Below are positions 20,537 through 48,245 of a DNA stretch of 64,000 bases, piece by piece; positions within the stretch are counted from its first letter, which is position 1; every line of letters begins with the position of its first letter. The DNA comes from Iphinoe sp. HA4291-MV1. Lineage in GTDB: Bacteria; Cyanobacteriota; Cyanobacteriia; Cyanobacteriales; Nostocaceae. A model generated the notes under the pieces. That model had not been told where the DNA came from. It searched no databases and saw nothing but the letters and a program-made list of their open reading frames with translations. The DNA is taken from NCBI GenBank assembly GCA_019359415.1, contig JAHHHH010000006.1, positions 90,547 through 154,546 of the forward strand, given 5' to 3'. A program made the translations under genes and the position numbers.

Positions 20537-20659
20537 GGGAGATCCAAAAAATAAAATAGAGCGCCGTCTAATTTATCGATTCTCCCAAATCCTTGCGTTG
20601 AGGTCGTCCCAGCCCGGAGGGTTGGGACACGGCTGGATATTTTATTACTTGTAAGTGCC
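20537..20659 (+). mobile_element. Small MITE, divergent copy C
   Basis: The 123-bp element starts GGGAGATCC plus A/T-rich text ending TAAAAT, and finishes ATTTTATTAC..GTAAGTGCC. It is flanked on both sides by TCA (20534-20536, 20660-20662). The ends match copies A (37066) and B (47983), but the interior differs. It lies about 100 bases downstream of the RelE toxin gene and has no coding capacity. Confidence 0.8.
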
Positions 20660-20662
20660 TCA

Positions 20663-21415
20663 CCAAGAATTTCCATCCAAAAGCCATTCGTGACAGGTTA
20701 AGGTTATGGTGCATTTGTCAATATGTAATAGGACTGAAAAATATCCAGAAAACTGTGGTCAAAAACATGATTTTTGGGTTAGCGATTGCGCAGAGCGCAG
20801 TGCCCTTTGGGCAATCGCTTAGTATTTAGACGCATCATTCATTCTTGCCCAAAAAAGTCAGTATAAAACTAAATTTTATACCTTATATTTTCCTCAATAT
20901 TCAGGATAATTACTAATTGACAAAAGTAGTGCTGTCTTAACCTGTCACAAATGTCCAAAAGCTGTCAGACAATTTTGGATTTTAGATTTTGGATAATGGA
21001 ATTGACCCCACGGATCAATCTGGAGAGAAGTTGCCAGGAGGGTTTCCCTCCAAGCAAACTTCGGGGGGCTTGGGAATGAGCGGATTTTAGATAATGGAAT
21101 TGGTTCCACAGGATTTATCCGCTTGCTCTGTACCATCAAGGAATCATTGGTCAAGCAGTGTGGGGAGCGTCAAGTAAACTAAATTACAAACTCAGTGCCA
21201 GCACACGCCACTCTCCTGGTGATTTAATAACCATGTCTAATTAGTTATTATGCCAAATGGCTGCAAATCTCGTATAACTTTCTCGCCTACTATTGCCTAG
21301 TACCGCAACTTGTGATAATAACATTACACATTCTGGACATTAGACTGAAGATAGGACATGGTGGTAGTGCTGCGTCCTTATGGCTAATTCCGCCAAATGC
21401 TAAATAGGAGAGTAC
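20663..21415. other. Intergenic region with several repeats
   Basis: About 750 bases without a gene. It contains a HIP1-related palindrome (about 20779-20820, GCGATTGCGCAGAGCGC-type), two copies of a TTTTAGAT..GGATAATGGAATTG-type direct repeat (about 20975-21005 and 21080-21110), and a GGAGGG-TTT-CCCTCC hairpin near 21038-21052. The slipin promoter should be near the right end; an AGGAGA ribosome site precedes its ATG. Confidence 0.5.
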
Positions 21416-22255
21416 ATGGAACCAATTATTGCCATAGTTTTAGTCCTTATAGGGTATGCATTAGGATCTGCAAAACTTATTAATCAGGGAAATGAAGCTT
21501 TGGTTGAACGTTTGGGGCAGTATCATCGCAAACTGAGACCAGGACTCAACTTTATCGTTCCCTTGTTGGATCAGATTGTAATGGAGGACACGACACGAGA
21601 GCAGGTTTTAGACATCAAGCCTCAGAATGTGATCACTAAAGATAACATCTACTTGGAAGTGGATGGCGTTGTTTACTGGCGCATCAGAGATATAGAGAAA
21701 AGCTTTTACGAAATTGACGATCTTCAACAGGCGCTGACAAACCTGACGACAACAACGCTTCGAGAAATTATTGCCCAAAACACCTTGGAGGAAACCAATG
21801 CTGCCAGAGCTAACATGAACCAAGCATTATTGGATGAGTTGAATCGGACAACTCAAGAGTGGGGAGTTGAGATTCTCCGGGTAGATATTCAAAGTATTAC
21901 ACCGCCTGAGAGCGTGCGGAAATCAATGGAAGAGCAGCGAGCAGCTGAAATTAATAGCCGCGCTGCGATTTTAGAAGCGGAAGGACAGCGCCAAGCGGCA
22001 ATTAAGAAAGCAGAAGGTACGAAAACCTCAATGCAGATCATTTCTGATGCTTTACGTGCCAACCCCGAAAGTAAGGAAATTCTACGGTATCTCGTGGCTC
22101 AAGATTACATCAATGCCAGTTACAGACTGGGTGAAAGCGAGAATGCCAAAGTTGTCTTTGTAGACCCAGGCAAAGGTGGTGAGATGATGGATTTGATCTC
22201 CGAGATGACATATCACGAAGATAATGGCAAAAATACTGAAAATAGTTCTACCTAG
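21416..22255 (+). CDS. SPFH/Band 7 protein, slipin type
   Basis: 279 residues. An N-terminal membrane segment (about 3-20) is followed by the SPFH/Band 7 domain (about 22-190; NQGNEALVERLGQYHRKLRPG and VITKDNIYLEVDGVVYWRI) and a charged helical region (190-235, with AAEINSRAAILEAEGQRQAA) typical of stomatin/paraslipin proteins. They form large membrane rings. No NfeD-like partner is adjacent. Its stop codon overlaps that of convergent folP by 2 bases. A ribosome site (TAGGAGAGTAC) sits before the ATG. Confidence 0.93.
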   Translation: MEPIIAIVLVLIGYALGSAKLINQGNEALVERLGQYHRKLRPGLNFIVPLLDQIVMEDTTREQVLDIKPQNVITKDNIYLEVDGVVYWRIRDIEKSFYEIDDLQQALTNLTTTTLREIIAQNTLEETNAARANMNQALLDELNRTTQEWGVEILRVDIQSITPPESVRKSMEEQRAAEINSRAAILEAEGQRQAAIKKAEGTKTSMQIISDALRANPESKEILRYLVAQDYINASYRLGESENAKVVFVDPGKGGEMMDLISEMTYHEDNGKNTENSST

Positions 22256-23118
22256 TTTGACAGCAACACTTGCGAAGATTGTCGGAAAATAGCATCAGCA
22301 ACCAACGATACATCGCGCATTTCTTTGACATCGTGAACTCGGAGGATATCAGCACCATTAAAGATAGCAGCACAACACGCCGCCGCCGTTCCCCAGACTC
22401 GTGCTTTCGGGTCTGGTTGGTTTAAAATGCGACCAATGAAACTTTTACGGGAAGGTCCTACTAAGATAGGACAGTTGAGTTGATGCAATTGGGGTAAGCG
22501 GCGAAAAATTTCTAAATTTTGCTCGTAGTTCTTAGCAAAGCCAATACCTGGATCAATGATGATTTTTCCTTGGTCAATACCTGCAGTAGTAGCTGCAGCA
22601 GTTTGTTTTGTCAAGAAACTGTAAATCTCGCCTATCAAATCCTGATACTCAGTGAATTGTTGCATCGTTTGCGGGTTTCCTCGGAGGTGCATTAATATAA
22701 TAGGCACATTCATCCTTGCCACTGTTAGCAGCATATCTGGGTCAAATATACCGCCGGAAATGTCATTAACTATATCTGCACCAGCTTCTACAGCAGCTTT
22801 AGCAACAACTGCCCTTGTTGTATCTATAGAAATTGGTACTGGTATCTCTTTTCGCAGCACTTGTAACACTGGAAGAATTCGGTCAAGTTCTTCTATAAGA
22901 GTAATTTGATTTGCCCCGGGTCGAGTTGACTGACCACCGACATCGATAATATCTGCACCAGCTGCTATCATTGCTTGCGCCTGAGCTAAAGCAGTGGTTG
23001 TCGTAATGAATTCGCCACCATCACTAAAACTATCAGGTGTGACATTGAGAACCCCCATGAGGTACGTTCGCTGTCCCCACTCAAAACAGCGTTCTCGAAT
23101 GATTAAATTGGGTGTCAT
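22252..23118 (-). CDS. folP: Dihydropteroate synthase
   Basis: 288 residues, standard length. The DHPS signatures are LMGVLNVTPDSFSDGG (about 21-36), IIDVGGQSTRPGA (about 60-72), VNDISGG, DPGIGFAKN and CPILVGPSRKSFIG. It joins 6-hydroxymethyl-dihydropterin pyrophosphate and p-aminobenzoate to give dihydropteroate in folate synthesis. It is the target of sulfonamides. It follows tpiA on the same strand across a 163-base gap that carries an inverted-repeat element, so co-transcription is possible. Confidence 0.97.
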   Translation of the reverse strand: MTPNLIIRERCFEWGQRTYLMGVLNVTPDSFSDGGEFITTTTALAQAQAMIAAGADIIDVGGQSTRPGANQITLIEELDRILPVLQVLRKEIPVPISIDTTRAVVAKAAVEAGADIVNDISGGIFDPDMLLTVARMNVPIILMHLRGNPQTMQQFTEYQDLIGEIYSFLTKQTAAATTAGIDQGKIIIDPGIGFAKNYEQNLEIFRRLPQLHQLNCPILVGPSRKSFIGRILNQPDPKARVWGTAAACCAAIFNGADILRVHDVKEMRDVSLVADAIFRQSSQVLLSN

Positions 23119-23135
23119 AAGATTTACACTCTACA

Positions 23136-23265
23136 CTCGTTCCTAGGGCTTTGCCTGAGAACGCTTTACGAGAGGCTCCGCCTCCAGATTTTACGATGAC
23201 TATCGCTATTTCTACGTGAGGCAGAGCCTCACTGTATGCATTCCCTGGCTCAGCCAGGGAACGAG
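23136..23265. repeat. Inverted-repeat element between tpiA and folP
   Basis: The ends are inverted repeats (CTCGTTCC at 23136 and GGAACGAG ending at 23265). Inside are palindromes such as GAGGCTCCGCCTC, GAGGCAGAGCCTC and CCCTGGCTCAGCCAGGG. It is a typical extragenic palindromic element of this genome group. It fills almost the whole gap and would fold strongly in a tpiA-folP transcript. Confidence 0.7.
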
Positions 23266-23281
23266 AGAAAATGTACATGAA

Positions 23282-24007
23282 TTACCGATAATTCACAAGT
23301 CTGGCGAAACTTGCGGGTTCCAAACTTGCTCCTCCCACCAGAACGCCATCAATTTCTGGTTCAGCCATGATTTTGTCTATCAAATTTGGCTTGACTGAAC
23401 CACCGTACTGAATTGGCACATCAGGATTATTCAACTGGCTGCGAATTAAACCGATGACACGATTGGCTTCCTTGCATTCACAAGTGTCACCAGTGCCGAT
23501 CGCCCAAATTGGTTCATAAGCAATCACCAAATTCTCCTGATCAATATCCACTAGGTCTTTTTCGAGTTGGGTGCTAATCAGTGATTCTGTTTCTCCCGTA
23601 TCTCGTTGTTGTTTCGTTTCACCTACACAGAGAATTGGGGTCAGACCAAACCTTTGAGCAGCTTTGAGGCGCAGGTTGACGGTGTAGTCCGTTTCACCAA
23701 AGTATTGCCGTCGTTCGCTATGACCGACAATAACATAGCGCACCCCAATTTCGGTGAGCATCGGTCCGGAAATTTCACCCGTATAAGCTCCACTCCCTTC
23801 CCAGTGAACATTTTGCGCCCCCAATTGTACACGGCTTCCATGCAAATTCTTGGACAAAACATTTAGATTGGTGAAGGGGACGCATAATACCACTTCTCGG
23901 TCTTGAGGGGTTTGGTCCAAGCTGGGCAGAAATCCTTTTAAAAACTCCAGGGATTCTGCCTGGGTTTTGAACATTTTCCAGTTACCGGCAATAACTATTT
24001 TTCGCAC
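23282..24007 (-). CDS. tpiA: Triosephosphate isomerase
   Basis: 241 residues from the GTG at 24005-24007 ([14 protein letters not shown]), the normal TIM length. An upstream in-frame start at 24046 would add 13 unrelated residues. Catalytic features are the NWKM lysine, the GHSERR histidine, and the glutamate in [11 protein letters not shown] (about residue 160), followed by phosphate loop YGGSVKP. It interconverts dihydroxyacetone phosphate and glyceraldehyde 3-phosphate in glycolysis and the Calvin cycle. folP follows downstream. Confidence 0.97.
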
Positions 24008-24215
24008 AGGTGATTTCGTCAAGAACAATAACGCTACTAGATGCATTTTTCAGTTTATGACTTTAAGGGGTCATCACGAAAGATAAACATCGTCGCTTCA
24101 TGGATAAGGAACAACAAAATAATCAAGCCCTCGAAAGCGTGATCGCCCTCCACAACACGCAAGGAGCAAGTACAATGGAGGTACAACCTTAGTTGTACCT
24201 CCAGAGGCTTCCAAG

Positions 24216-24431
24216 ATGAAACGGACACTTTATATTCCTGATGAGTTGTGGACACAACTTGACGAATACTTAAAAGACCACCCAGAGCAAAACCCATCAA
24301 GTGTTGTACAGGCAGCACTGGCGGAAAAGTTACGCCCCAAAAATGGTTCAAGGCTACTATCGCTGGCAGGAATCGTGGAAAATGCTCCTACAGATGCTTC
24401 AGTTAATGAAGACTATTTGATACAAGGATGA
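24216..24431 (+). CDS. Ribbon-helix-helix antitoxin
   Basis: 71 residues with the beta strand MKRTLYIPDELW followed by two helices (TQLDEYLKDHPEQNPSSVVQ), the pattern of RHH/CopG DNA-binding proteins. The C-terminal tail (GSRLLSLAGIVENAPTDAS) is the likely toxin-binding part. It overlaps the PIN-domain gene by 4 bases (ATGA), so it is read as its antitoxin. Confidence 0.8.
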   Translation: MKRTLYIPDELWTQLDEYLKDHPEQNPSSVVQAALAEKLRPKNGSRLLSLAGIVENAPTDASVNEDYLIQG

Positions 24432-24835
24432 AGCGTCTCGTTTTGGATGCAGGTCCCCTGATTGCCCTGGTTTCTGTCCAAGATGACTACCATCAGGAAT
24501 GCAAAGCGGGTTTTAGTAAATTACCAGCGTTGTTTGGTGAGGTTCTTACCCCTCTACCAGTGCTGTTTGAAGTTTACAAGTTTGTGCTGCGAGAACAATC
24601 GAGCCGTGCTGCAATGACTGCATTAGCTGTCATTTGTGAGAACACAGTCACTGTAGCACTGAGCATGGAAATGTTTCAGGATATTTACAGCATGGTTCGT
24701 CAGATACCAAATTGGCAGGGAAGTTTAGAGGATGCCTCAGTCGTAGCGGTAGCTCAGCTTTATGACGCTAGTGTTTGGACATTGGATTACAGAGATTTGA
24801 GTTGGTTCAAGAGTCTGGAATTGTGGTCGCCGTGA
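24428..24835 (+). CDS. PIN-domain toxin
   Basis: 135 residues. PIN residues visible are the N-terminal Asp (LDAGPLIAL, D7), a Glu in VLFEVYKFV, an Asp in GSLEDASVVAVAQ and another in VWTLDYRDLSWF. The spacing fits an Mg2+-dependent VapC-like RNase. It is a different subtype from the VapC at 7765. It is encoded directly after its RHH antitoxin and is the third toxin-antitoxin pair of the window. Confidence 0.85.
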   Translation: MKRLVLDAGPLIALVSVQDDYHQECKAGFSKLPALFGEVLTPLPVLFEVYKFVLREQSSRAAMTALAVICENTVTVALSMEMFQDIYSMVRQIPNWQGSLEDASVVAVAQLYDASVWTLDYRDLSWFKSLELWSP

Positions 24836-25170
24836 GCATTGCACAGGACAAGTCAACTACTTACACTGACACCTTCCGGTACAGTCAAATAATTTATGAG
24901 TATTTTACTTCTGGAATGAGATACAAGTAAGAAAAATCAAGAAACGATATTTTCTCAGTTGGCTAAAAAGCTCTATTTATAAAGGATTGAGGTAGATGCG
25001 AGCGTTCATCCTTCTTGCGCAGTCGAGGCATTTGTTGTTAGTAACAGCAAAGTGCTTATCTGTACCTCAAATCTGAGTTAAATAGCTACTTCACGATGTG
25101 GTCGTCGTCGCTTCCCGGAAGTCATGATAGTAAACGAGATATATATATAAATTTAAAATCCAAAATTAGC
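24836..25170. other. Intergenic region upstream of GTPase gene
   Basis: About 335 bases with no clear gene. An in-frame extension of the GTPase frame reaches 25096 but shows no family character, and the run ATATATATAAATTTAAAAT just before the chosen ATG looks non-coding. No strong palindrome or promoter was recognised. Confidence 0.4.
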
Positions 25171-26646
25171 ATGACTTCTACATTGCCAGATCCACATCGT
25201 AGCGACTTGCCCAAAAATAGCGAAAATTCCCCCAATTGGGAGGAACAGCTCGATAGTGCCATTTTCACTTTTGAAGATATTCAGGCAGAACTCAACTATA
25301 AACAGGCACGCACAGCACTACAACATTTGGTCGATCATCTTGACCTCACTCCCCAGGAAAAAGACGGACTGGAGATGGAAATTGCCGATTTGGAAACAAT
25401 GCTCTCCAAGTTAGAACGTATGGTGGTGCAAATAGCCGCCTTTGGTATGGTGGGACGAGGCAAATCATCTCTACTCAACGCTTTGGTTGGACAAAGCGTG
25501 TTTGAAACAGGTCCGTTGCATGGTGTCACCCGCAATTCTCAAACAGCAAATTGGACTATCACAGAAGAAGCGATTGGGAACACAGAACGTACTTTGCGAG
25601 TGACTCTATCAGGTACAGGTCAATCTCAAGTGGAATTGATTGACACCCCAGGATTAGACGAAGTTGATGGTGAAACCCGCGCAACACTGGCTCAACAAGT
25701 GGCAAAACAAGCAGATCTGATTCTGTTTGTGATTGCTGGCGACATGACGAAAGTTGAACACGAAGCCCTTTCTCAATTGCGGGAAGCAGGTAAACCTATC
25801 TTGCTAGTGTTTAACAAGGTCGATCAGTATCCCGAAGCAGACCGGATGGCAATTTACCAAAAAATCCGGGATGAGAGAGTACGAGAATTACTATCACCAG
25901 ATGAGATTGTTATGGCTGCAGCATCACCATTGGTGAGGACGATGGTTCATCGCCCCGATGGTAGCAAGGGTGTGCAGTTGCGTACAGGGGAAGCCCAAGT
26001 TGAGGAATTGAAGCTGAAAATTTTGGAGATTTTACACCGCGAGGGTAAAGCCTTAGTCGCCCTCAACACGATGCTTTATGCTGACAATATCAACGAGCAA
26101 TTGGTGCAGCGAAAACTAAAGATTCGAGATGCGAGTGCCAACCAGTTAATTTGGAAGGCGGTGATGACCAAAGCAATGGCGATCGCTCTCAATCCTGTCA
26201 TGCTAGTAGATGTTATCACGGGTGCGGTGATAGATATCGTCCTGATCCTAGGTCTATCAAAACTTTATGGCATTCCCATGACCGAAACCGGAGCCGTACA
26301 ATTATTACAAAAAATTGCCTTTAGTATGGGTGGTATCGGTGCCAGCGAACTATTGGCAAACTTGGGCTTGAGTTCGCTGAAAACATTACTTGGTCTATCT
26401 GCACCGGTGACTGGGGGCGCTTCGGTAGGTGCTTATCTTTCGGTAGCGCTGACTCAAGCGGGTGTAGCAGGCGTTTCTTGCTATGGTCTTGGGTATGTGA
26501 CCAAAGCATATTTAGCCAATGGGGCAAATTGGGGACCAGATGGTCCTAAAGTTGTGATTAGTAAAATTTTGGCAACCCTAGATGAAGGTTCAATTCTCAA
26601 TCGTATTAAAGATGAATTGCGATTGAAGATAAAAGGGAAAAGATAA
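25171..26646 (+). CDS. Era-like GTPase with DUF697 domain
   Basis: 491 residues from the ATG at 25171. The GTPase domain (about 85-300) has G1 GMVGRGKSSLLNAL, G3 DTPGLDE and G4 NKVD. The C-terminal DUF697 region (about 325-470) has hydrophobic segments rich in Gly and Ala (NPVMLVDVITGAVIDIVLIL, SMGGIGASELLANLGL, VGAYLSVALTQAGVAG) that suggest membrane insertion. Proteins of this build are conserved in cyanobacteria and plastid lineages; their role is not settled. A perfect 25-bp hairpin downstream separates it from the convergent GNAT gene. Confidence 0.9.
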   Translation: MTSTLPDPHRSDLPKNSENSPNWEEQLDSAIFTFEDIQAELNYKQARTALQHLVDHLDLTPQEKDGLEMEIADLETMLSKLERMVVQIAAFGMVGRGKSSLLNALVGQSVFETGPLHGVTRNSQTANWTITEEAIGNTERTLRVTLSGTGQSQVELIDTPGLDEVDGETRATLAQQVAKQADLILFVIAGDMTKVEHEALSQLREAGKPILLVFNKVDQYPEADRMAIYQKIRDERVRELLSPDEIVMAAASPLVRTMVHRPDGSKGVQLRTGEAQVEELKLKILEILHREGKALVALNTMLYADNINEQLVQRKLKIRDASANQLIWKAVMTKAMAIALNPVMLVDVITGAVIDIVLILGLSKLYGIPMTETGAVQLLQKIAFSMGGIGASELLANLGLSSLKTLLGLSAPVTGGASVGAYLSVALTQAGVAGVSCYGLGYVTKAYLANGANWGPDGPKVVISKILATLDEGSILNRIKDELRLKIKGKR

Positions 26647-26712
26647 GGGTAACCTTGGTCAAATCAATTTGTTTTAGACAAAGACTTATGCAAGATGAAA
26701 CGCCCTCATTCC

Positions 26713-26850
26713 CAATACGGTTCGGATAACCCTGCAGGCGAAGTGCTATCGCACCGCTCCGCTAACGCGCCCCCGACGCAGTTTGCACGCCCCGCTTTGA
26801 ATGGCGCGCACCCAATAGGGTGACGGCTCACCGTTAACCGAACCGTATTG
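26713..26850. mobile_element. MITE-like inverted-repeat element
   Basis: The 138-bp segment has terminal inverted repeats CAATACGGTTCGGATAAC and its complement (17 of 18 bases agree). The interior contains HIP1-like GC-rich repeat text. No target duplication was visible and it has no reading frame, so transposition is not proven. Confidence 0.55.
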
Positions 26851-26903
26851 CCCTCACCCCCTAGCCCCCTCTCCCACTGGGAGAGGGGGCTAGGGGGTGA
26901 GGG
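26851..26903. terminator. 25-bp perfect hairpin between convergent genes
   Basis: The left arm 26851-26875 (CCCTCACC...) and the right arm 26879-26903 are perfect complements with a 3-base loop. CTATTTT follows. It lies between the DUF697 GTPase gene and the convergent GNAT gene and would terminate both directions. CCCCTAGCCCC-type hairpins of this sort recur in many cyanobacterial genomes as repeats. Confidence 0.7.
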
Positions 26904-26968
26904 CTATTTTCCTGAAAATTCTAATTTCAACAATAAGGTGCTTTCAAAACCGGACTCAGTATCTTATG

Positions 26969-27925
26969 TTAGATACTCTTGACATACATAATTCGCGTGT
27001 TTTTTTTACGGAAACCAATAGATTCATACAGCCGCAAAGCACCGTTGGGGTTATCTGCATCAACACCAAGTCTAGCTGTTTCCATATCTGCTGCTTTTAG
27101 ACAATGCAATCCGCAAAGCAATATGGCTCGTCCCAGTCCCATCCGGCGGAAGCCACGCTGCGTACCAAGTATGCGAACCCAACCTTCGTTAAGTCCGGTA
27201 CGTGCATTGTAATCTGGGTCAACGTAGCAGTGACAAAAAGCAGCAAAAGTACCATCAGCAGCAGTGGCAATTAAATCCAATTCTGGTCTGTAGGTTGGTT
27301 CATTTAGCCAGTACTTGAGATTTTCCACTGTTAAAGGATGGTAATTCCAGTGGTCGATAAATGACTGGTTATGTAATTCCACCCACGCTGGTGCATCCTG
27401 TTCACCATTCATCTGGCGTAAGGTGAAGCCCCCTGGAAACTGTGGTTGTGGGATGGGTTCAGCAAGTGAACGCTCCATTGTAAAAAAGTAGCGATCGCGT
27501 GTGAAACCGTTACTCTCAACAATAGCGACGTGTTCGTTTTGGTAGTCTCGCACTCCTAAAAGTAACCTAACAGGAAAACTCCGCTCTTGACTAACTTCAT
27601 GCATCCGCTCTTGGCTCCACTGAATAATTTTAGTTTCCAAATCGCCACCACGAGCGCTTGGATGGACATAGAAACTCATGAAACCATCAATAGTCTCGCT
27701 AGGTTCAGTCAGCCATAGAAAACCGAAGCCTATTAGCTTGCCATCAGCATCTTCCCATAACTTTAGGTCACGGACTCGATCCACAGAAGGGGTGTTGATA
27801 TCTGTTTTGAGTTCGGTAACTGATACTCCTTCATCTTTATCAATGGTGTCACAGATGTTAATCAAGTAAGCTATTGTTTCTAAATCCGCTTCTTCCTTAT
27901 AGGGACGTGTAGTTATAGTCGTCAT
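26969..27925 (-). CDS. Tandem GNAT acetyltransferase
   Basis: 318 residues with two GNAT folds, as in mycothiol synthase-like proteins. The C-terminal domain (about 165-318) carries an acetyl-CoA loop: RGFRRMGLGRAILLCGLHCL, then NGALRLYESIGFRKK. The N-terminal domain (about 1-155) is degenerate. A broad range of N-acetylations is possible; the substrate is unknown, and mycothiol synthesis is not expected in cyanobacteria. It faces the DUF697 GTPase gene tail to tail. Confidence 0.88.
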   Translation of the reverse strand: MTTITTRPYKEEADLETIAYLINICDTIDKDEGVSVTELKTDINTPSVDRVRDLKLWEDADGKLIGFGFLWLTEPSETIDGFMSFYVHPSARGGDLETKIIQWSQERMHEVSQERSFPVRLLLGVRDYQNEHVAIVESNGFTRDRYFFTMERSLAEPIPQPQFPGGFTLRQMNGEQDAPAWVELHNQSFIDHWNYHPLTVENLKYWLNEPTYRPELDLIATAADGTFAAFCHCYVDPDYNARTGLNEGWVRILGTQRGFRRMGLGRAILLCGLHCLKAADMETARLGVDADNPNGALRLYESIGFRKKNTRIMYVKSI

Positions 27926-29299: not shown

Positions 29300-29314
29300 G
29301 CGGTTAACTTAAAA

Positions 29315-30730: not shown

Positions 30731-30778
30731 GGATTGTTAATTTTTAAGAACACTGTCGCAAGTTGTAATTAATTTAGT

Positions 30779-32867: not shown

Positions 32868-32897
32868 CATATTCCGTCTATTGCCGACCTAGCTGCA

Positions 32898-36876: not shown

Positions 36877-37065
36877 GCCATAATGCATTTTAAACGGTTG
36901 AAAATAGCGTCCGTATGTGTCCAGAGAGTTAACCTCTGCGAGAACCCTCTCCCCAAATCGGAGATTTGGGGCACAGAGCGCGATCGCTTTTGTCGGTTTA
37001 GTCCACGATGTAGAGTTCAAGATCAAGCCGTAGAGGGCGGAAATTTCCCAGCCCTTGCGATGTTA

Positions 37066-37166
37066 GGGAGATCCAAAAAATAAAATGTCCCGCCGTGTAT
37101 TAAGTTAACGGGTTGGTGTAGAGGATCTGGGTTTGACGGCGGGACATTTTATTACTGGTAAGTGCC
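37066..37166 (+). mobile_element. 101-bp MITE, copy A (upstream of isiA)
   Basis: The element starts GGGAGATCC and ends GTAAGTGCC. The ends form imperfect inverted repeats of about 31 bases with a GTCCCGCCGT stem. TTA flanks both sides (37063-37065, 37167-37169). It is 98 of 101 bases identical to copy B. It carries no reading frame and ends 114 bases before the isiA start. Confidence 0.9.
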
Positions 37167-37280
37167 TTATCACTCGTCATCATATTTTAATGATATTTAC
37201 TTTCAATAATTTGAATTTTAGTGTAAGCTACTTTCTAGAGTTGTTAAATAAAATTCTCAATAAACTTTAATAGGAGTAAA
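37167..37280 (+). promoter_or_regulatory. isiA upstream region
   Basis: These 114 AT-rich bases must hold the isiA promoter unless it lies in or upstream of the MITE. A small dyad ATCAT-ATTTTA-ATGAT (37181-37196) is a weak candidate for a Fur-like site. A TAGGAGT ribosome site lies about 7 bases before the ATG. Iron-dependent control is expected from the family, not shown here. Confidence 0.4.
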
Positions 37281-38321
37281 ATGACAACTTCTACAAGTCC
37301 GCTGTCGGTGGAGCAAGACCTCGCCGACTCGCCTTGGTGGGCTGGGAACGCAAGACTCACCAACTTATCGGGGAAATTACTAGGCGCTCACGTCGCTCAT
37401 GCTGGTCTTATTGTTTTCTGGGCAGGAGCCATGACTTTATTTGAGCTAGCCCATTTTAATCCGGCAGAACCGATGTATGAGCAAGGCTTAATTTTGCTAC
37501 CTCATCTAGCTGCTGAAGGTTGGGGTGTAGGCGCAGATGGTGTAGTTGTGGATACTTATCCTTATTTCGTCATTGGAGCTTTGCATCTGATTTCCTCAGC
37601 CTTTCTGGGCTTTGGAGGAATCTTTCACTCCCAGCGTGGTCCAGAAACCTTAGAAGGCAGGTTTCCTTTCTTTGGCTATGACTGGAAAGATACAGGCAAA
37701 ATGACCACAATACTTGGTATTCACCTAGTTTTACTGGGTTGTGGTGCATTCTTGTTAGTTGCCAAAGCAATGTACTTTGGTGGTTTGTACGACCCAAACA
37801 TTGAGAATGTGCAGATAATTACAAATCCGACACTAAACCCAGCTGTCATCTTCGGCTATCTGTTTGGCGCAATTGGTAAATTCTGGATTGCTGGCGTTGA
37901 CAACCTAGAAGACGTGGTTGGCGGTCACATTTGGGTTGGTGCAATGTTGATTATCGGTGGACTTTTCCACATTTTGACCAAACCCTTTACCTGGACGCAT
38001 CCACTATTTGTTTGGTCTGGAGAAGCTTACCTATCCTACAGTCTAGGTGCTTTGGCACTGATGGGCTTTATCGCAACTCTCTTCGTATCGGTAAACACCA
38101 CTGTTTATCCCGAAGTTTTTTATGGTCCGGCGCTCGTGGTTAGGCAGAATATTGTGCCGTACTTTTCATCACCCGACCCTGACCTTGTAACTGCCCGGAC
38201 TTGGTTAGCCAATACCCACTTTTGGTTAGCTTTCTTCTTTCTCCAAGGTCATATCTGGCAAGCTTTACGGGCGCGTGGGTTCGATTTTCGTAAAGGTAGG
38301 GTGAGTCAGAGAGAAGTCTGA
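37281..38321 (+). CDS. isiA: Chlorophyll a-binding IsiA/CP43'-like protein
   Basis: 346 residues, the IsiA size. It has six membrane helices of the CP43/Pcb antenna family and lacks the large lumenal loop of true CP43. Landmarks are [20 protein letters not shown] at the start, repeated His ligands ([48 protein letters not shown]), and [12 protein letters not shown]. IsiA forms rings around photosystem I under iron stress. It is the first gene of a pair with the IsiA-PsaL fusion; a hairpin overlaps its stop codon. Other Pcb-type antennae cannot be excluded. Confidence 0.93.
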
Positions 38322-38342
38322 TCGGCGGAAGCCGCCGATCAG
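38318..38342. repeat. Hairpin on the isiA stop codon
   Basis: An 11-bp perfect stem (CTGATCGGCGG, loop AAG, CCGCCGATCAG) includes the isiA TGA. Text after it (AACTTCGGAG) matches repeat family members at the left window edge and near 21040. No U-run follows, so it may attenuate or stabilise rather than terminate. Confidence 0.8.
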
Positions 38343-38464
38343 AACTTCGGAGAGGCGGTGATTCCGCAACCGATTAGCTGAACTCAAATTAATGTCAATA
38401 ATTTGCAACTATCTTGAAGCAAAAGCTCAATAAAATTGCAAGATTTTCTCAAGGAGTACCAGAA

Positions 38465-39979
38465 ATGACAGCAGTAATTGCAGATAGCCCATACAAGCAA
38501 CAAATACCTGATGTTGGTTGGTGGGCTGGGAACGCAAGACTCACCAATCTATCAGGAAAATTACTAGGCGCTCATGTTGCCCATGCTGCATTGATTTTGT
38601 TATGGGCTGGAGGAATGACGCTGTTTGAACTGTCGCGCTTCAATCCTAATGTGCCAATGTATGAGCAAGGATTAATCATACTGCCTCATCTCGCGATTCT
38701 CGGTTTTGGTGTCGGAGCTGGTGGGCAAGTCATTAGCACCTATCCCTACTTCGTCATCAGCGTTTTGCATCTTATCCCTTCAGTTATTCTGGCAGCTGGT
38801 GGTATTTACCACTCGCTGCTGGGACCAGAGGTGTTAGAAGACAATCCTACTTTGGCTGGCTTTTTTGGCTATGACTGGAAAGACAAGGACAAGATGACAA
38901 CAATCCTGGGTATTCACCTAATAATTTTAGGTTTGGGTGCTTGGCTTCTGGTTGCTAAGGCGATGTTCTGGGGTGGACTGTTTGACCCTTGGGCTACTGG
39001 TGGTGGAGACGTCAGGGTCATCAATCATCCGACGCTCAGCCCATTCCGCATCTTTGGCTACCTGTTTGGGGTTTGGGGATCACAGGGAATGGCAGCTGTT
39101 GATAACTTGGAAGATGTTGTTGGTGGTCACATCTGGGTTGGTTTGATGTTAATTGGCGGTGGTATTTTCCACATCCTGACTAAGCCGTTTGCTTGGGCGC
39201 GCCAAGTTTTGATTTACTCAGGCGAAGCGTATCTGTCCTACAGTCTAGGCGCTTTAGCATACATGGGCTTTTTTGCGGCATACTTTGCGTCGGTCAATAA
39301 CACCGTCTATCCTGAAGTTTTCTATGGTCCGGTTACCGCTATAGAAACTTCTACTGGTATAGTTTCTGCTCGTGGTTGGTTGGTAACTTTCCATTTTATC
39401 CTGGCGGTTATATTCCTGTTAGGTCACATTTGGCACGCACTGCGCGCCCGTGCGATCGAAGCTGGATTTGATTTTAAAAATGGTGATATGGTTCAGCCGC
39501 CACGGGTGAATCGCCAAACGGGTCATCCAGCAACCGCAGTCAACTCTTCTGATTTGACGCTGAGGTTTCTCAAATACTTGCCAATTTACCGCCCTGGTAT
39601 ATCTCCTCTCTCACGGGGATTGGAAATTGGCATGGCTCATGGTTACTGGTTGGTTGGTCCGTTTGCCACATTAGCTTCATTAGGTTCATTACACAATTCT
39701 AATGTGGGTAATTTGGTTGGTTTACTAGCCGCAGGCAGTTTGATTGTCATCCTGACAATTGGTTTTTCGATTTATGGCAGTACCAGCTTTGAAAGACATC
39801 TGGAAACTGTACCACAATCAGCAACGGTTGCAACAGTTCCCAACGTGCCACAGACTCTCAATTCTACCGAAGGATGGAGTGAATTTACTGAGGGTTTTCT
39901 GATTGGTGGGATTGGTGGAGCAATCTTCGCGTATCTCCTGTTGACTAATGTTGCTGTGTTTGGTGCAATGGTGCAGTAG
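38465..39979 (+). CDS. IsiA-PsaL fusion antenna protein
   Basis: 504 residues from the ATG at 38465 with an AAGGAG site 10 bases upstream (an upstream frame start at 38414 adds 17). Residues about 1-335 are an IsiA-like six-helix chlorophyll protein ([59 protein letters not shown]). Residues about 350-504 resemble Psa[36 protein letters not shown], and [20 protein letters not shown]. The PsaL part should sit at the photosystem I trimer-tetramer interface and tether the antenna. Such fusions are known from Nostocales. It is downstream of isiA. Confidence 0.93.
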
Positions 39980-41920: not shown

Positions 41921-41997
41921 AAATCGTACCTGACATTTTTGTGAAGGCGCATATCTGGGAACATTTAACCTGAAATTTCGTAGTTTGTCAGGATAGT

Positions 41998-42444
41998 TTG
42001 GACAAAATCAGAAATGTAGGGGAAGATACAAGTGGAACATATTCGCTAACCGAGGTAGTACTGCAACCGCAAAGCATCACGCCACTCCACATTCATGAAG
42101 CAGAAGAAGCGCACTACATTCTTGAAGGTGAGGTTGAGTACCAACTTGACGAGCAGACTATCATCGCAACTCCAGGAACCTTCCTTCAGTTGCCCAATGG
42201 TCAAAGCCACGGTTTTACGAACATCGGGTCAAAGCCTGCTAAAATACTAATTTGGGTTACACCAGCAGGAGCGGAGCAGTTTTTTGCAGAACTTGGGAAG
42301 CCAGTGAACTTACCAATAAACGAAGAAGAAATACGCAGTCTCTGTCAACCTCCAAGTCCTGACGAAATTGAAAAAGTTATTGAAGTCGCTACGACAAAGT
42401 ATGGGACAAAAGTAGTCACTCCTGCTTCTAGTTCTGGCAGTTAA
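41998..42444 (+). CDS. Cupin-domain protein
   Basis: 148 residues from a TTG; the frame is closed by a stop at 41971, so the gene may be N-terminally shortened. The cupin motifs are clear: motif 1 TPLHIHEAEEAHYILEGEVEY and motif 2 PGTFLQLPNGQSHGFTNIG, giving the metal ligands His, His, Glu and His. The C-terminal part (PINEEEIRSLCQPPSPDEIEK) is typical of cupins in quercetinase/oxalate-type groups. A dioxygenase or storage role cannot be decided. It is divergent from murJ. Confidence 0.75.
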   Translation: MDKIRNVGEDTSGTYSLTEVVLQPQSITPLHIHEAEEAHYILEGEVEYQLDEQTIIATPGTFLQLPNGQSHGFTNIGSKPAKILIWVTPAGAEQFFAELGKPVNLPINEEEIRSLCQPPSPDEIEKVIEVATTKYGTKVVTPASSSGS

Positions 42445-42477
42445 GGATGCATAATTCCTAGAGTTGATTGTTTTTGC

Positions 42478-42573
42478 TTAAGCATAAGCTGGACTAGCGT
42501 AAAGTAGCACCCATAGCCAAGCAAGAACCCAAATAACTATCAATCCCAATATGCGGAGTAGAATTTTTTTCAT
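42478..42573 (-). CDS. Possible 31-residue membrane peptide
   Basis: A short frame on the minus strand reads MKKILLRILGLIVIWVLAWL and ends SPAYA then stop. It is one hydrophobic helix with two Lys and one Arg at the start and a signal-peptide-like end with no mature protein after it. An AAAGG stretch lies about 7 bases upstream of the ATG. It lies between the cupin gene and the convergent-side LCP gene. It may be a small membrane protein, a decaying gene, or a leader. Confidence 0.4.
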   Translation of the reverse strand: MKKILLRILGLIVIWVLAWLWVLLYASPAYA

Positions 42574-42625
42574 AGCTTGCCTTTAGTGAGTAGTTAGTTG
42601 GTAACAACTAACTACTCACTGCTAA

Positions 42626-44071
42626 CTACTTCCAATCTTTACCAATCCGGATTGTGATATCAGATTCTAAATCGCCAGTCGCTGACACCTCAACCTGACC
42701 CAAACCTAGCATTTGTTGTAACTCTTCTGCTGCTTGTTGGTTCCCTTTTTGAGTTATAATCTTAGTCTCACTTCGGTTATCAGTCCAGTCTGGCACAGCG
42801 TAAACTTTTGTAAATCCTTGCTGTTTAAGATTATTGATAACCTGTTGAGTCAGTTCGGGTTTTGTAGAAGCATTCTGAACAGCAACTTTGAGGCTTGTGA
42901 GTGGTTTCACACTTGAGGACATACCCCCTATTGTCACCCCAGCATAATCCTCTAGCAAGTCAGATCGCCCAGTGAGATCCAACCAGTAGCTATCGGGATC
43001 TTTGCTGAGACGGCTGAAAATTCCAGGTAATATGGTCATCTGGTAATTATCTCGCTGCAGGTTCATAGCAAAGTTCACCAGTGCCATCATTTCTTCCAGC
43101 TTCAGGTTAGTGTCGAAGTGCTTTCGCATGACACGGACGAGTTGAGGCAACCTGAGTAAAACAGTAGGACTGTTTAGGCGATCGCGCAACCCTACCAAGA
43201 GTGCTTGCTGTCGTTGTACTCTTTCCAAATCCCCCATTCCTGGTTCGCGAAACCGCACAAATTGTTCCGCCTGTTCACCATTAAGTGTCTGCCAACCGCT
43301 AACTAAGTTAATCGAAAATCGTGTAGCAGGGTCTTTATAAACCATTGCTTTGGGAACAAAAACCTCCACACCACCTAACTGATCCACTAAATGTCGTAAA
43401 CCACTGGTGGAAATACGAATGTAGCGGTCAATTGGTGCATTACTGAGAGTACGGCTGATAACCCGCGCAGCCAATACTTGACCACCTTGAGCGTTGGCAT
43501 CAGATACCTTAGTTAATCCTTTTTCTGGAACAGTTGTCATGGTATCTTTAGGAATTGAAAGCACCCGGATTGTTTTGTTGTTTGGGTTGAGTCGTATCAG
43601 CAGTATCGTATCACTATGAGCTGCAAAACTTTCTGGAGAACCATCTACACTCCTAGGTACTGGCTCAATACCCATGACCAAGATATTCATTGGTCGAGTG
43701 AGATGGTATTCTGAAATGTTACTCCACAACTCTCCTGGTAGAGGTGTTTTTTCCTCTTTGCCACTCAATCCTAATTCTTCATCTGTTCGATCAATGTCAC
43801 TCCAGAGTGGAGTCCAAAGTGCCAAAGTCGATACTAGCAAACCTGACAAAGTGATGCCTACAACAATTGTTAGTATCCAAAAGAGCCATCGAGGCATGGC
43901 TAACCCCAACCTATGGTAGAGCTGGCTGGGAACAGAACCCGTAGATACGATACGGGAAACTTTTTCTTGCTTTCTTATTGCCACCCCGTTTGGGGATTGT
44001 TGTAATTTACCAGATGTGCCCTGATGTTCTTGACCTGCTACTTGCTTGACCACAATAGTCTCCCCACTCAT
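42626..44071 (-). CDS. LytR-CpsA-Psr (LCP) family protein
   Basis: 481 residues. A cytoplasmic stretch of about 60 residues precedes one membrane helix (about 62-85, LFWILTIVVGITLSGLLVST). The LCP domain (about 125-330) has HSDTILLIRLNPNNKTIRVL with SIPKDTM, VDQLGGVEVFVPKAM and FVRFREPGMGDLERVQRQQAL; conserved Arg and Asp residues that bind polyprenyl phosphate are present. A LytR_C domain ends the protein (about 385-481). LCP enzymes attach glycopolymers to the cell wall. Confidence 0.93.
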   Translation of the reverse strand: MSGETIVVKQVAGQEHQGTSGKLQQSPNGVAIRKQEKVSRIVSTGSVPSQLYHRLGLAMPRWLFWILTIVVGITLSGLLVSTLALWTPLWSDIDRTDEELGLSGKEEKTPLPGELWSNISEYHLTRPMNILVMGIEPVPRSVDGSPESFAAHSDTILLIRLNPNNKTIRVLSIPKDTMTTVPEKGLTKVSDANAQGGQVLAARVISRTLSNAPIDRYIRISTSGLRHLVDQLGGVEVFVPKAMVYKDPATRFSINLVSGWQTLNGEQAEQFVRFREPGMGDLERVQRQQALLVGLRDRLNSPTVLLRLPQLVRVMRKHFDTNLKLEEMMALVNFAMNLQRDNYQMTILPGIFSRLSKDPDSYWLDLTGRSDLLEDYAGVTIGGMSSSVKPLTSLKVAVQNASTKPELTQQVINNLKQQGFTKVYAVPDWTDNRSETKIITQKGNQQAAEELQQMLGLGQVEVSATGDLESDITIRIGKDWK

Positions 44072-44339
44072 CCACTCCCTAAACGTAATGTTAATGCAAG
44101 CTATAAATCTTGCTCGTGAACAACATCACTCAAAGTCTGAAGTTTAAAGTGTAAATTGTTCGTCCTATCCTGTTCTACGGAAAACCCGTAGAGTCCGTCT
44201 ATATCCTTTACCCTTGACTCTTTTTTGGTGTGTGTCTGTGTGTCATTTCCTCTGACTTTATCCGAACATCTTTATACTTCATTACTTTTATTTGTCAAAG
44301 TACACTTGTAGTGTTCTTTAATAAGTTTTTACGATCCTC

Positions 44340-45404
44340 ATGACTAGCTCGTTGTTCCCTGTCATTCTTGCTGGTGGTAAAGGAGAGCGTTTTTGGCCCC
44401 TAAGCCGTCAAAATCGACCCAAGCAATTCTTGAATCTTGATGGTAGTCATAGAAGTCTCCTACAAGCAACTGCTGACCGATTGTTGACACTTGCAGGCGG
44501 TTGGGACAACTTGTGGGTTATCACTGCTAGTCAAATAGCTCAAGGGGTCAGAGAACAACTACCTGAATTGCCACCCACCAACTTACTTGTCGAGTCGCTC
44601 TTAAGGGACACTGCTGCTGCAGTTGCTTGGGCCAGTTTAGAAATTCAAAAGCGTTACGGAGACGACGCTGTTATCGGCTTTTTCCCTGCAGATCACTGGA
44701 TTGCCGACCAAAAAGCATTTGTGCGCACAATAGATGCAGCTACAGAGCTTGCAGCAACCCAAGCAGCGATTGTCACACTGGGGATCAAGCCTACCTTTCC
44801 ATCAACTGGTTACGGCTACATCGAACAAAGCGGAAGGATTGGTAGCTTTCATGACTTGCCAGCTTACCACGTCAACCGCTTTACTGAAAAGCCTGAGCGA
44901 CAAACGGCAGAAAATTTTCTCTCTACAGGACGTTTTAGCTGGAATAGCGGGATGTTTATTTTTCGAGCGGGTGTTGTTCTCAAAGAACTGCACAGACATG
45001 CTCCAGAAATTATTGAACCGATAGAAAAAAACGGTCCTGATATCTACCAAGAGCTACCTAAGAAAAGTATAGACTATGCCTTGATGGAAAAGACGGATAT
45101 AGCTTATGTTTTGCCAGCAGAATTTGGCTGGGATGATTTGGGAGATTGGAATGCGATCGAGCGTTTACTGAAAAAAGAAGGCACTCTCAACGTTGAGGAA
45201 GCAACTCATATCGGATTGGACACACAGGGATCTATAATCTATTCCACAAATGACGAGGATGTTGTTGTTACCATCGGATTAGAGGATGTCGTGATTGTAC
45301 GCGATCGCAACGTCACCCTTATTGTCAAAAAAGACCGTACCCAGGAAATTAAGCAAGTCCTCAAAACCCTACAGAATGATCCCCGATTTACTAGCTTGCT
45401 TTAA
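44340..45404 (+). CDS. Mannose-1-phosphate guanylyltransferase
   Basis: 354 residues. The GT-A nucleotidyltransferase fold has the signature VILAGGKGERFWPLSRQNRP (8-27), KQFLNL, PADHWI and TEKP (VNRFTEKPERQ). It makes GDP-mannose from GTP and mannose-1-phosphate for glycan synthesis. The C-terminal isomerase domain of bifunctional ManC/AlgA enzymes is missing, so it is the monofunctional type. The ATG at 44340 lies directly after an AT-rich leader. It is not near other glycan genes but is divergent from the LCP gene. Confidence 0.94.
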   Translation: MTSSLFPVILAGGKGERFWPLSRQNRPKQFLNLDGSHRSLLQATADRLLTLAGGWDNLWVITASQIAQGVREQLPELPPTNLLVESLLRDTAAAVAWASLEIQKRYGDDAVIGFFPADHWIADQKAFVRTIDAATELAATQAAIVTLGIKPTFPSTGYGYIEQSGRIGSFHDLPAYHVNRFTEKPERQTAENFLSTGRFSWNSGMFIFRAGVVLKELHRHAPEIIEPIEKNGPDIYQELPKKSIDYALMEKTDIAYVLPAEFGWDDLGDWNAIERLLKKEGTLNVEEATHIGLDTQGSIIYSTNDEDVVVTIGLEDVVIVRDRNVTLIVKKDRTQEIKQVLKTLQNDPRFTSLL

Positions 45405-45534
45405 AACTTAAAACCCTTGACAGAGGCATAAAAGGTTTGTCAATCATTATAACTTTTCTGTCTCTTATTTTATTTGAACTATTTCATTTGAACAATTATG
45501 CAAATTATCATTCTCTGCTGCTAACCTGCATAGG

Positions 45535-45752
45535 GAGTGGGGAAATGGGGATTGGGAATCGAGCATTATTGCCCCTTGCCCATTGCCCCTTGCCCATTGC
45601 CCATTGCCCATTGCCCATTGCCCATTGCCCATTGCCCATTGCCCCTTGCCCATTGCCCCTTGCCCATTGCCCATTGCCCATTGCCCATTGCCCATTGCCC
45701 CTTGCCCAATTCCCCATTGCCCATTGCCCCTTGCCCAATTCCCCATTGCCTT
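45535..45752. repeat. Large heptamer repeat block (CCCATTG)
   Basis: About 200 bases of tandem CCCATTG/CCCCTTG heptamers, the longest STRR block of the window. The period of 7 keeps all frames open and spells PLPIAHC-type repeats, so predicted coding frames there are artefacts. Confidence 0.95.
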
Positions 45753-45762
45753 CAATAAAACC

Positions 45763-47388
45763 ATGTTTCTCACCCAAACTGTTCCTCGTCAAAGAGAAAT
45801 CATTGAAGTCCTGCTTCGTAATGGCTGGGACTATATGCGACGACTCCTCACTGGAGGAAAAGCCGATGAACCCCAGCTACCCACACCTGCTGTTTTAAAG
45901 AATATCCTGGTGGATTTAGGACCAGTCTATGTTAAACTAGGTCAGTTGATGTCTACCCGTCCAGACCTACTGAGCGCAGCATACATAGAGGAATTGTCCA
46001 CACTACAAGATGAAGTGCCACCAGTTCCTTGGGCAGATGTAGAAGTCGTCATTCGTAAACAGCTTAAACGTCCTTTAGAAGAAACCTTCGCCACAGTAAA
46101 TGCGATCGCAGTAGCAGCAGGCTCGATCGCCCAAACACATAAAGCCATACTAGCAGATGGTCGGGAAGTTGCTCTTAAGGTGCAACGTCCCGGAATTGAT
46201 ATCACTGTTGCCCAGGATATCGCCTTAATTCAAGGTATTGCCGATTTAGTGGCTCGTACCGAATTTGGGCAAACTTATGAAATCAAATCCATAGCTGAAG
46301 AATTTACCAAAGCACTGGAAGCAGAGTTAGATTTTACACTGGAAGCAAGCTTCACCGACCAGTTACGACGCAATTTATCCCAAAGTCGCTGGTTTGATCC
46401 TACACAATTAGTCGTTGCCGAAATTTACTGGAATTTAACTACACCAAAATTACTGGTGATGGAGTGGCTGGACGGCGTTCCCCTCCTGTCAGCAGATCTT
46501 GACAGTGACAAAGAACGCAAAGCAATTACCACACTACTGTTCCGCGCTTTCTTTCAGCAACTGTATATTGATGGCTTTTTCCACGCCGATCCTCATCCAG
46601 GTAACTTATTTTATCTCAAAGATGGTCGTGTTGCCCTTTTAGATTGTGGCATGGTGGGACGGCTTGATCCCCGCACGCAAGGCGTATTGACAGAAATGTT
46701 GTTGGCAATTGTGGATCTGGATGCTCAGCGGTGTGCTCAGTTAACTTTACAACTGGCGGAGTCTACACAGCCAGTGATTATGGTTAAACTGGAAAATGAT
46801 TATGACCGGATGCTGCGAAAGTATTATAACTTGAGCTTGTCGCAACTCAATTTTAGTCAAATCATCTACGAACTTCTGCAAATCGCCCGTAACAATAAAA
46901 TTCGCTTGCCCAGTAACATGGGTTTGTATGCTAAAACTCTGGCTAACTTAGAGGGGGTGACGCGAGGATTTAACCCAGAGTTGAACTTTCTTGATGAAAT
47001 TCAGCCATTGCTGACAGATTTGTTTCGCCGACAGCTGTTTGGGGATAGTCCCGTGCGATCGCTCCTGCGAACAGCTCTAGATCTCAAAAGTCTCTCTTTA
47101 CAATCTCCTCGACTCCTAGAGTTACTGCTAGACCGAATTACCTCAGAATCTCTACAGTGGAATATCTCAGTGCGTGGTTTAGATGGCTTACGCCGAACAA
47201 CAGATGATGCTGCAAATCGTCTTTCTTTTAGTATCTTAGTAGGTTCACTGATTATGGGTGCAGCAATTATCTCTAGCAACGCGAGGACATCTCAGTTATC
47301 TTTTTTGAGTAATGTGTTGTTTGCCACCGCTAGTTTATTAGGGCTTTGGTTAATTATCAGTATTTTACGCTCAGGACGGCTACGTTAA
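45763..47388 (+). CDS. ABC1/UbiB-family atypical kinase
   Basis: 541 residues from the ATG at 45763, directly after the heptamer block; a longer frame running back into the block is an artefact. Motifs are KLGQLMSTRPDLL (KxGQ), the Ala-rich loop AAGSIAQTHKA, ATP Lys in VALKVQRPG (about 137), catalytic HADPHPGNLF (about 273) and DCGMVGR (about 292). Two C-terminal membrane segments (about 490-540) follow. ABC1 kinases act on prenylquinone metabolism in membranes and, in plastids, in plastoglobules. It is followed by the broken uma2 gene. Confidence 0.93.
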   Translation: MFLTQTVPRQREIIEVLLRNGWDYMRRLLTGGKADEPQLPTPAVLKNILVDLGPVYVKLGQLMSTRPDLLSAAYIEELSTLQDEVPPVPWADVEVVIRKQLKRPLEETFATVNAIAVAAGSIAQTHKAILADGREVALKVQRPGIDITVAQDIALIQGIADLVARTEFGQTYEIKSIAEEFTKALEAELDFTLEASFTDQLRRNLSQSRWFDPTQLVVAEIYWNLTTPKLLVMEWLDGVPLLSADLDSDKERKAITTLLFRAFFQQLYIDGFFHADPHPGNLFYLKDGRVALLDCGMVGRLDPRTQGVLTEMLLAIVDLDAQRCAQLTLQLAESTQPVIMVKLENDYDRMLRKYYNLSLSQLNFSQIIYELLQIARNNKIRLPSNMGLYAKTLANLEGVTRGFNPELNFLDEIQPLLTDLFRRQLFGDSPVRSLLRTALDLKSLSLQSPRLLELLLDRITSESLQWNISVRGLDGLRRTTDDAANRLSFSILVGSLIMGAAIISSNARTSQLSFLSNVLFATASLLGLWLIISILRSGRLR

Positions 47389-47917
47389 GATATGACGTAA
47401 GAATTTACCGAATCACTGAGTTATATGACATCACTTACATTAAACCTCGATTCTATTATTAAACTGACTTCAGAGCAGTTTTATCAACTATGCCAAGATA
47501 ACCCTGATTTAAAATTAGAACGCAATGCCCAAGGAGAATTAATAGTAATGCCACCCACAGGAGGAGAGACAAGAAAAAGAAATTCTTCTCTTAACGTACT
47601 AACTTGGTTATGGAACGACAAAACCCAACTGGGCGAAGTTTTTGATTCATCAACTGGATTTAGTTTACCAAATGGAACAGACCGTTCTCCTGATGTTTCT
47701 TGGGTGCAAAAAACTCGTTGGAATAGCTTGACAAGCGAACAAAAAGAAAAATTTATTCCTCTGAGTCCTGATTTTGTTATTGAAATACTTTCACCATCTG
47801 ACAACTTGAAAAAAACTCAACAAAAGATGCAAGAATATATTGAAAACGGTTGTCTGCTTGGTTGGTTGATTAACCGGAAACAACAGAAAGTCGAAATATA
47901 TCGACCAGGACAAGAAG

Positions 47918-48245
47918 CAGGGCAAGCGCATCTTGTCAATAAGAACGCAAAAATCTCAAGAAAGAGTCAAAGAATCGCATTAGGCACTTAAGCGTAATAA
48001 AATGTCCCGCCGTCAAACCCAGATCCTCTACACCAACCCGTTAACTTAATACACGGCGGGACATTTTATTTTTTGGATCTCCCTTAAGTCCCGTTTCTTG
48101 ATAAGCACTTAGGCGTAGACGCTTTGCGGCTTGCCGGAGGCATCGCTATTAGCCCGTAGAAATCAATCGAACCCTAAATCCTTATTTGATTGTTAATGCA
48201 TTAAGTGTATGTTTTGTCAATCCCATTTGAGATGCGCTTACCCTG
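47918..48245. mobile_element. 328-bp inverted-repeat element in uma2
   Basis: The ends are CAGGGCAAGCGCATCT and the complement of CAGGGTAAGCGCATCT (one mismatch in 16). It is bordered by a perfect 10-bp duplication, GGACAAGAAG (47908-47917 and 48246-48255). No transposase is encoded; 101 bases of it are MITE copy B. The end sequence and the 8-10-bp duplication suggest an ISAs1-type internal deletion derivative, which is inference. Confidence 0.9.
47983..48083 (-). mobile_element. 101-bp MITE, copy B (nested)
   Basis: Inverted relative to copy A, it starts GGGAGATCC at 48083 and ends GTGCC at 47983, flanked by TTA on both sides (47980-47982, 48084-48086). It differs from copy A at three positions near the right end. 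It lies inside the 328-bp element, so it entered later than that element. Confidence 0.9.

Follow-up and report, generated by a model that had tools for sequence, protein, structure and literature searches.

The window analysed here is a 64,000-nucleotide stretch of DNA from Iphinoe sp. HA4291-MV1 (contig JAHHHH010000006.1, positions 90,547 to 154,546); the source genome comprises 7.36 Mb in 140 contigs, with the window on contig 138. It carries three short non-coding elements, A, B and C, which belong to a family of miniature inverted-repeat transposable elements (MITEs) (Table 1). Each consists of poorly pairing 13 bp outer ends, followed inwards by 18 bp arms and a core. Re-reading of the sequence reproduced the coordinates, lengths and strands given for the three copies in a preliminary description, as well as the agreement of A and B at 98 of 101 positions and the perfect 3 bp repeats at the borders (on the + strand, TTA on both sides of A and of B, and TCA on both sides of C). 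The three mismatches between A and B are contiguous (TGG versus GCT at element positions 91-93, near the right end). All copies had been said to have the same ends; this holds in general, but the right end of B reads TTAAGTGCC rather than GTAAGTGCC. The end pair of A, GGGAGATCC on the left and GGCACTTAC on the right, is asymmetric. In C, the arms mismatch at 4 of 18 positions and the core has a hairpin of its own. A three-base ACTGG/ACGCT switch near the right end recurs in subfamilies whose cores differ (L077 versus L084, for example), hinting at an exchange of ends.

Table 1. Features of the 64,000-nucleotide window (ORF, open reading frame; TSD, target site duplication)
Feature	Position	Strand	Remarks
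MITE copy A	37066..37166	+	101 bp; perfect 18 bp arms; by sequence, BLAST and hairpin folding
Copy A, outer ends	37066-37078; 37154-37166		
Copy A, arms	37079-37096; 37136-37153		
Copy A, core	37097-37135		
TSD TTA, left of A	37063..37065	.	Border 3-mer
TSD TTA, right of A	37167..37169	.	Border 3-mer
MITE copy B	47983..48083	-	101 bp; 98/101 identical to A
Copy B, outer ends	48071-48083 (left); 47983-47995 (right)		
Copy B, arms	48053-48070; 47996-48013		
Copy B, core	48014-48052		
TSD TTA beside B	47980..47982	.	Present singly in empty sites
TSD TTA beside B	48084..48086	.	Present singly in empty sites
MITE copy C	20537..20659	+	123 bp; A/B outer ends, different core
Copy C, outer ends	20537-20549; 20647-20659		
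Copy C, arms	20550-20567; 20629-20646		
Copy C, core	20568-20628		Own hairpin
TSD TCA, left of C	20534..20536	.	Border 3-mer
TSD TCA, right of C	20660..20662	.	Border 3-mer
Photosystem II/CP43-type ORF	37281..38321	+	Starts 114 bases after A ends
IsrR antisense RNA match	37683-37860	-	Rfam
IsrR antisense RNA match	38876-39062	-	Rfam
Uma2-family ORF	47425..47991	+	Last codons and stop within B
Phd/YefM-ParE type toxin-antitoxin pair	19916-20435		Roughly 100 bp separate its end from copy C

Many further copies of these elements exist in the source genome. Sites bounded by matching 3-mers number 25 (TAA at 13, TTA at seven, and TCA, AAA, TTG, CTA and TAG at one each); 23 of them hold elements of 101-125 bp, one an element of 229 bp and one an element of 407 bp, and truncated copies are present in addition. 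The duplication was tested on 19 full-length BLAST copies from this genome, chosen regardless of their flanks, because the 80-row family table had been selected for matching flanks and its 64 TNA rows are no test (in that table, L219 was treated as chance and L270 is one element listed on both strands). All 19 have identical 3-mers at both borders: TAA in nine, TTA in four, TAG in two, and AAA, TCA, CTA and TTG in one each. Two of the 19 (contigs C11 and C108) have at least 60 bp of flank in common and may represent one duplicated site. The preliminary description had given the duplication as TNA. Its length of 3 bp stands, but TNA, which accounts for 14 of the 19, is too narrow, as TAG, CTA, TTG and AAA also occur; the target site is AT-rich and not strictly TNA.

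Empty sites holding a single copy of the target, which had been put forward as proof of transposition, were found, with a single TTA, for two copies. Approximately 230 bp surrounding B is repeated within the source genome, with at least seven places matching across the joined B flanks among the matches listed; the four repeats that were aligned each read ...GAATCGCATTAAG... with a single TTA, versus TTA-element-TTA at B. For the copy on contig 34, the sister genome G004 is empty and reads ...AAAGCATTACGTTC... with a single TTA. No relative matching across the joined flanks was found for copy A or copy C among the matches listed. The copy on contig 105 interrupts a class II tRNA synthetase gene, by our reading of the threonyl type: the Pfam tRNA-synt_2b match is divided between the two flanks, 10-119 on one and 122-179 on the other, and an open frame of 417 residues results when they are joined at a single TAA. 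The number of copies, the flank matches and the single-TTA sites bear out the recent movement proposed earlier. A, B and C are members of a real, recently mobile MITE family with a 3 bp target duplication; they are short, non-coding and dispersed, and terminal inverted repeats, target duplications and empty sites are all present.

The source genome contains 21 exact instances of the left-end pattern GGGAGATCCNNNAAATAAA (versus zero for the reversed control). In an order-wide sample of 148 genomes the pattern was found in two, namely the source genome, the sole member of its genus in that sample, and one other. The observed repeat family is far beyond chance and this exact left-end type has a narrow distribution. 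MITE matches were found in all eight genus genomes searched, and the variant ends GGGATCTCC, GGGGAGACC and GGGTGGACC occur in sister species and in Fischerella. Seven plasmid records, all from Nostoc, matched A at E 0.01; looser plasmid searches added Fischerella and others amid chance hits, and whole copies are present on named Nostoc and Fischerella plasmids. Ten viral contigs contained the left-end pattern, none with a flank-matched right end, and were treated as chance.

It had been suggested that the elements might be mobilized in trans by an autonomous partner, with the IS1031 group of IS5 as the likeness offered. Insertion sequences (ISs) of the ISAzo13 family also generate 3 bp target duplications, and for that reason we examined this family as a candidate partner. 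Matches to PF07592 (ISAzo13-type) were present in seven of the eight genus genomes, and ISAzo13-family ISs of the genus have ends similar to those of the MITEs (GGGACTTCCAAAAAATAAAAT...) and mostly TTA/TAA 3 bp duplications. G003, a genome in three contigs, has two full-length ISAzo13 ISs with GGGACTT(C/A)C ends: one with ends GGGACTTCCAAAAAATAAATTATGCC/GGGACTTCCAAAGAATAAAATATTCC and TSD TAA, the other with ends GGGACTTACAGAAAATAAAATATACA/GGGACTTCCAGAAAATAAAATATACA and TSD TTA. An ISAzo13 IS of the source genome (L274) has the same ends, and both of its ORFs are open and match PF07592 above the cut-off; their best NCBIfam model is ISAzo13 (NF033519), the halves scoring 193.8 and 83.9 bits, each below the 200-bit cut-off. 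A scan of named genomes identified 53 related loci. The IS duplication test used 24 chosen loci (16 of these 53, 2 of 17 genus PF07592 loci and 6 of 8 plasmid loci), seven of which gave no left end by motif. When the remaining 17 copies were delimited by the end motif alone, 13 had identical 3-mers, all TTA, TAA or CTA; the disagreeing four were L297, L299, L309 and L390.

Copy A matches the 26 bp IS end at 22 of 26 positions on its left and 19 of 26 on its right. Among the 127,948 26-mers of the window (both strands), 12 score at least 17/26 against the IS end and six of these are MITE ends, with scores of 22, 22, 21, 20, 19 and 17; the weakest, the right end of B, is tied with four other window 26-mers. 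ISAzo13-type transposases are encoded on plasmids of all five strains whose plasmids carry delimited whole MITEs (Nostoc ATCC 53789, C057, HK-01 and UHCC 0302, and Fischerella NIES-4106). GGGACTTCC ends lie on both sides of four of the eight plasmid ISAzo13 loci, three of which, including that of Fischerella, are flanked by TTA/TTA. The MITEs and the ISAzo13 ISs are thus alike in their terminal ~21 bp, in a 3 bp, mostly TTA/TAA duplication and in the strains that carry them. They differ in that the MITEs encode no transposase and have unrelated cores, and in that the outer ends of the MITEs are asymmetric while the ISs have GGGACTTCC on both sides. Judging from these sequence comparisons, an ISAzo13 transposase very probably moves the MITEs. 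The transposase would read the IS-like terminal ~21 bp (GG.A..TCC..AAATAAAAT) at either MITE end and cut at the outer GG; the element would then be joined to a 3 bp staggered, AT-rich target (mostly TAA/TTA), which would be duplicated. Mobilization in trans is thereby supported as probable, and the proposed search for a full-length IS with the MITE ends was successful in part, yielding ISAzo13 ISs with similar ends but none with the exact ones.

Several observations weigh against ISAzo13 as the partner. Both G003 ISs look inactive, one having an in-frame stop and the other a 115 bp insert. L274 is flanked by TAA and TTA with no direct repeat, and when it is included identical 3-mers are found in 13 of 18 IS copies. 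The other four of the eight plasmid ISAzo13 loci, including that of UHCC 0302 (46% identical), did not show GGGACTTCC ends on both sides. The genomes and plasmids examined yielded no ISAzo13 element whose ends are exactly GGGAGATCC/GTAAGTGCC, and within its first nine bases A departs from the IS end twice on each side (positions 5 and 6 on the left, 3 and 8 on the right). The 340-contig draft genome G005 has 11 MITE matches but no PF07592 match. The cores of A, B and C are not derived from any of the eight ISs with which they were compared: no A/B-type match was obtained at E 1, and the best C-type match was 21 bp (E 0.02). Other MITE cores do have strong IS matches, but, among the matches listed, these fall in the 115 bp insert of one IS. 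Finally, no transposition event was observed.

An IS1031-like or other IS5-family partner would also make 3 bp TNA duplications, the type seen at most of the MITEs, and IS5-type transposases exist in these genomes. No matching end pair occurs at the IS5-type loci examined. MITE end motifs were absent near the three PF13340 loci of the source genome, where that group was searched, and the 26 PF13359 loci of the eight genus genomes yielded two lone 8-mers (L165 and L172), each without its partner motif. As four of the kinds of duplicated 3-mer are not TNA and ISAzo13 ends fit instead, we consider the IS5 assignment very improbable. A second alternative is some different kind of autonomous element, extinct or unseen, that has the exact asymmetric ends, a feature that the symmetric ends of ISAzo13 do not reproduce. 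No such element was found in the examined stretches of G000, G003, G007 and three plasmids, where, an intron-bearing copy aside, nothing longer than 450 bp had both ends and a plausible coding frame. These stretches cover each genome in part. The ~21 bp match to ISAzo13 together with the common 3 bp duplication accounts for both ends, and an element of this kind seems improbable.

Two sets of candidates were rejected during this search. Plasmid end pairs more than 450 bp apart had, among those listed, 8-17 mismatches in their 20 terminal bases and were attributed to chance, and a 1173 bp "element" in G003 proved to be a MITE that contains a group II intron. Both at this locus (L102, 417-1589) and in Fischerella AP018300 (L187, from 17687), such an intron seems to be placed within the MITE left end or immediately behind it (GGGAGATCCA..^GTGCG); Rfam detected a group II intron domain in both, and the G003 intron-bearing MITE retains AGA/AGA flanks.

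The ISAzo13 ISs have two further features. In L274 (2136-2217, - strand), L276 and L281, the transposase is divided between two frames at a CAAAAAAAATT run, an arrangement to be expected of programmed frameshifting or slippage; 13 of the 25 ISs listed contain the run. The 14 longer listed ISs of 1.55-1.82 kb (L274, L276, L281 and L291-L329) have a Fur-box-like palindrome, typically AATGATAATCATT, near both ends. It scores 13-17 of 19 against the E. coli consensus (shuffle 95th percentile, 12-13), versus 9-13 in the 11 ISs of approximately 1.3 kb, and could be a transposase site or serve in iron control.

The 31 bp terminal repeat of the MITEs comprises the imperfect outer 13 bp and an inner 18 bp. 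The arms were analysed in rows with no more than six arm mismatches (L219, L270, L223 and one L156 row being omitted). Of the 44 distinct arm pairs in these rows, 23 are perfect, and 94.1% of arm cells are paired, a value biased upward because this filter favours paired arms, versus 75.2% in shuffles (0 of 500 as high) and 39-48% when the arms are slid. Changes are double in 124 cells and one-sided in seven. Hybrid elements with two different arms include C and its three sister rows; in four Fischerella hybrid rows, the left arm and the right arm are each also found, at another place on that plasmid, in an element whose two arms match. The cores were clustered as 57 distinct sequences of up to 260 bp at a threshold of 20, while shuffling one core of a pair gave a maximum score of 15 in 3000 trials (the last two-member cluster is L270 versus itself). 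Core orientation relative to the outer ends is mixed in three subfamilies (17:2, 8:4 and 2:3), and one mixed-orientation cluster lies within the source genome (contig 135 versus contigs 105 and 83).

Two papers, in their accessible text, attribute to template switching the homogenization of inverted-repeat arms together with spacer inversion (PMC8604942) and the ability to generate and preserve hairpins (PMC8794818). In the MITEs, the arms might fold or pair across strands during replication and the polymerase switch template; one arm would be copied onto the other, so that the arms stay complementary while drifting, and the core would occasionally be inverted. We lean towards such switching, and away from RecA-type recombination or RNA-hairpin selection, as the source of the arms and flips. 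Under the last of these, the hairpin would be kept for its RNA structure (a terminator, stabilizer or small RNA) and mobility would be secondary. The covarying arms fit this explanation, as does copy A, whose fold none of 200 shuffles equals on either strand (z -3.95 and -5.59). For C, however, 10 of 200 shuffles equal or better the fold (z -1.88), several copies have mismatched hybrid arms, and cores occur in both orientations. Copying of arm onto arm at the DNA level is favoured because more G-U steps would be expected under RNA selection, and G-U or one-sided intermediates are few (the seven cells above, versus 124). RNA selection is therefore an improbable explanation. Homologous or site-specific recombination between the arms deserves more weight as the cause of core flipping, since 18 bp inverted arms flank every flipped core; it is still unlikely, as it leaves unexplained both the arm-onto-arm copying and the blocks of adjacent changes (TGG to GCT). 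Movement in trans by ISAzo13 combined with template switching of arms and cores is probably the best explanation overall. Its dozens of copies, its diverged arms and the readability of its outer ends make the family look like an unusually clear natural record of bacterial arm copying and spacer inversion.

The left and right ends of the MITEs also differ in that GATC is present in the left end of 60 of 76 rows and in the right end of none. The left-end GATC arises in two ways (GGGAGATCC and GGGATCTCC) and is found in none of the ISAzo13 ends seen. Dam methylation ties IS10 movement to replication, and by analogy the left-end GATC could link MITE movement to replication through GATC methylation. 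This link belongs to a speculative and quite improbable proposal, namely that asymmetric ends and palindromic arms are kept because arm copying and core inversion take place while a folded single-stranded form transposes or replicates; if so, each round could leave the element with its hairpin matched anew or with its core flipped or exchanged. An ISAzo13 transposase gene (L281, IS 1186-1300) is interrupted by a second type of palindromic repeat (TTGTCCCC...ACGTG.AAGACCC), which occurs also in L065 and L188. This repeat has its core in common with some MITE cores, and cores seem to be exchanged between the repeat families.

Copy A lies directly upstream of the CP43-type ORF, which we read as IsiA-like. 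The Rfam scan of the window gave the two IsrR matches only, suggesting tandem isiA-type genes. In five sister genomes, a conserved stretch upstream of the CP43/IsiA-like ORF starts 16-18 bases past the A insertion point.

Within the accessible portion of the open-access literature, no description of an ISAzo13-linked MITE was found. REP/REPIN elements, which are moved by RAYT, and Nezha, reportedly a MITE of Anabaena and Nostoc (Zhou et al. 2008), are the nearest points of comparison, together with the MITEs of Anabaena sp. 90. REP/REPIN elements are likewise short, palindromic, dispersed repeats, as portrayed in the available text of PMC3733652, but the MITEs described here have IS-like ends and a 3 bp target duplication. 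Nezha is cited, in the accessible part of PMC3049150, as a cyanobacterial MITE, with ISNpu3-like ISs proposed as the means of its movement, and resembles the present family, by description and not by sequence, in having a proposed IS partner. The available text on Anabaena sp. 90 (PMC3542288) reports 147 complete or partial MITEs classed without an IS partner; its type II MITEs (77-541 bp, with a hairpin and no recognized IS partner) are likewise similar by description only. Compared in this way with Nezha and the Anabaena sp. 90 MITEs, the present family appears to be new but ordinary in kind, and ISAzo13 is offered as its likely partner; in Anabaena sp. 90, cyanobacterial MITEs of this sort had been left without an assignment, as "type II".

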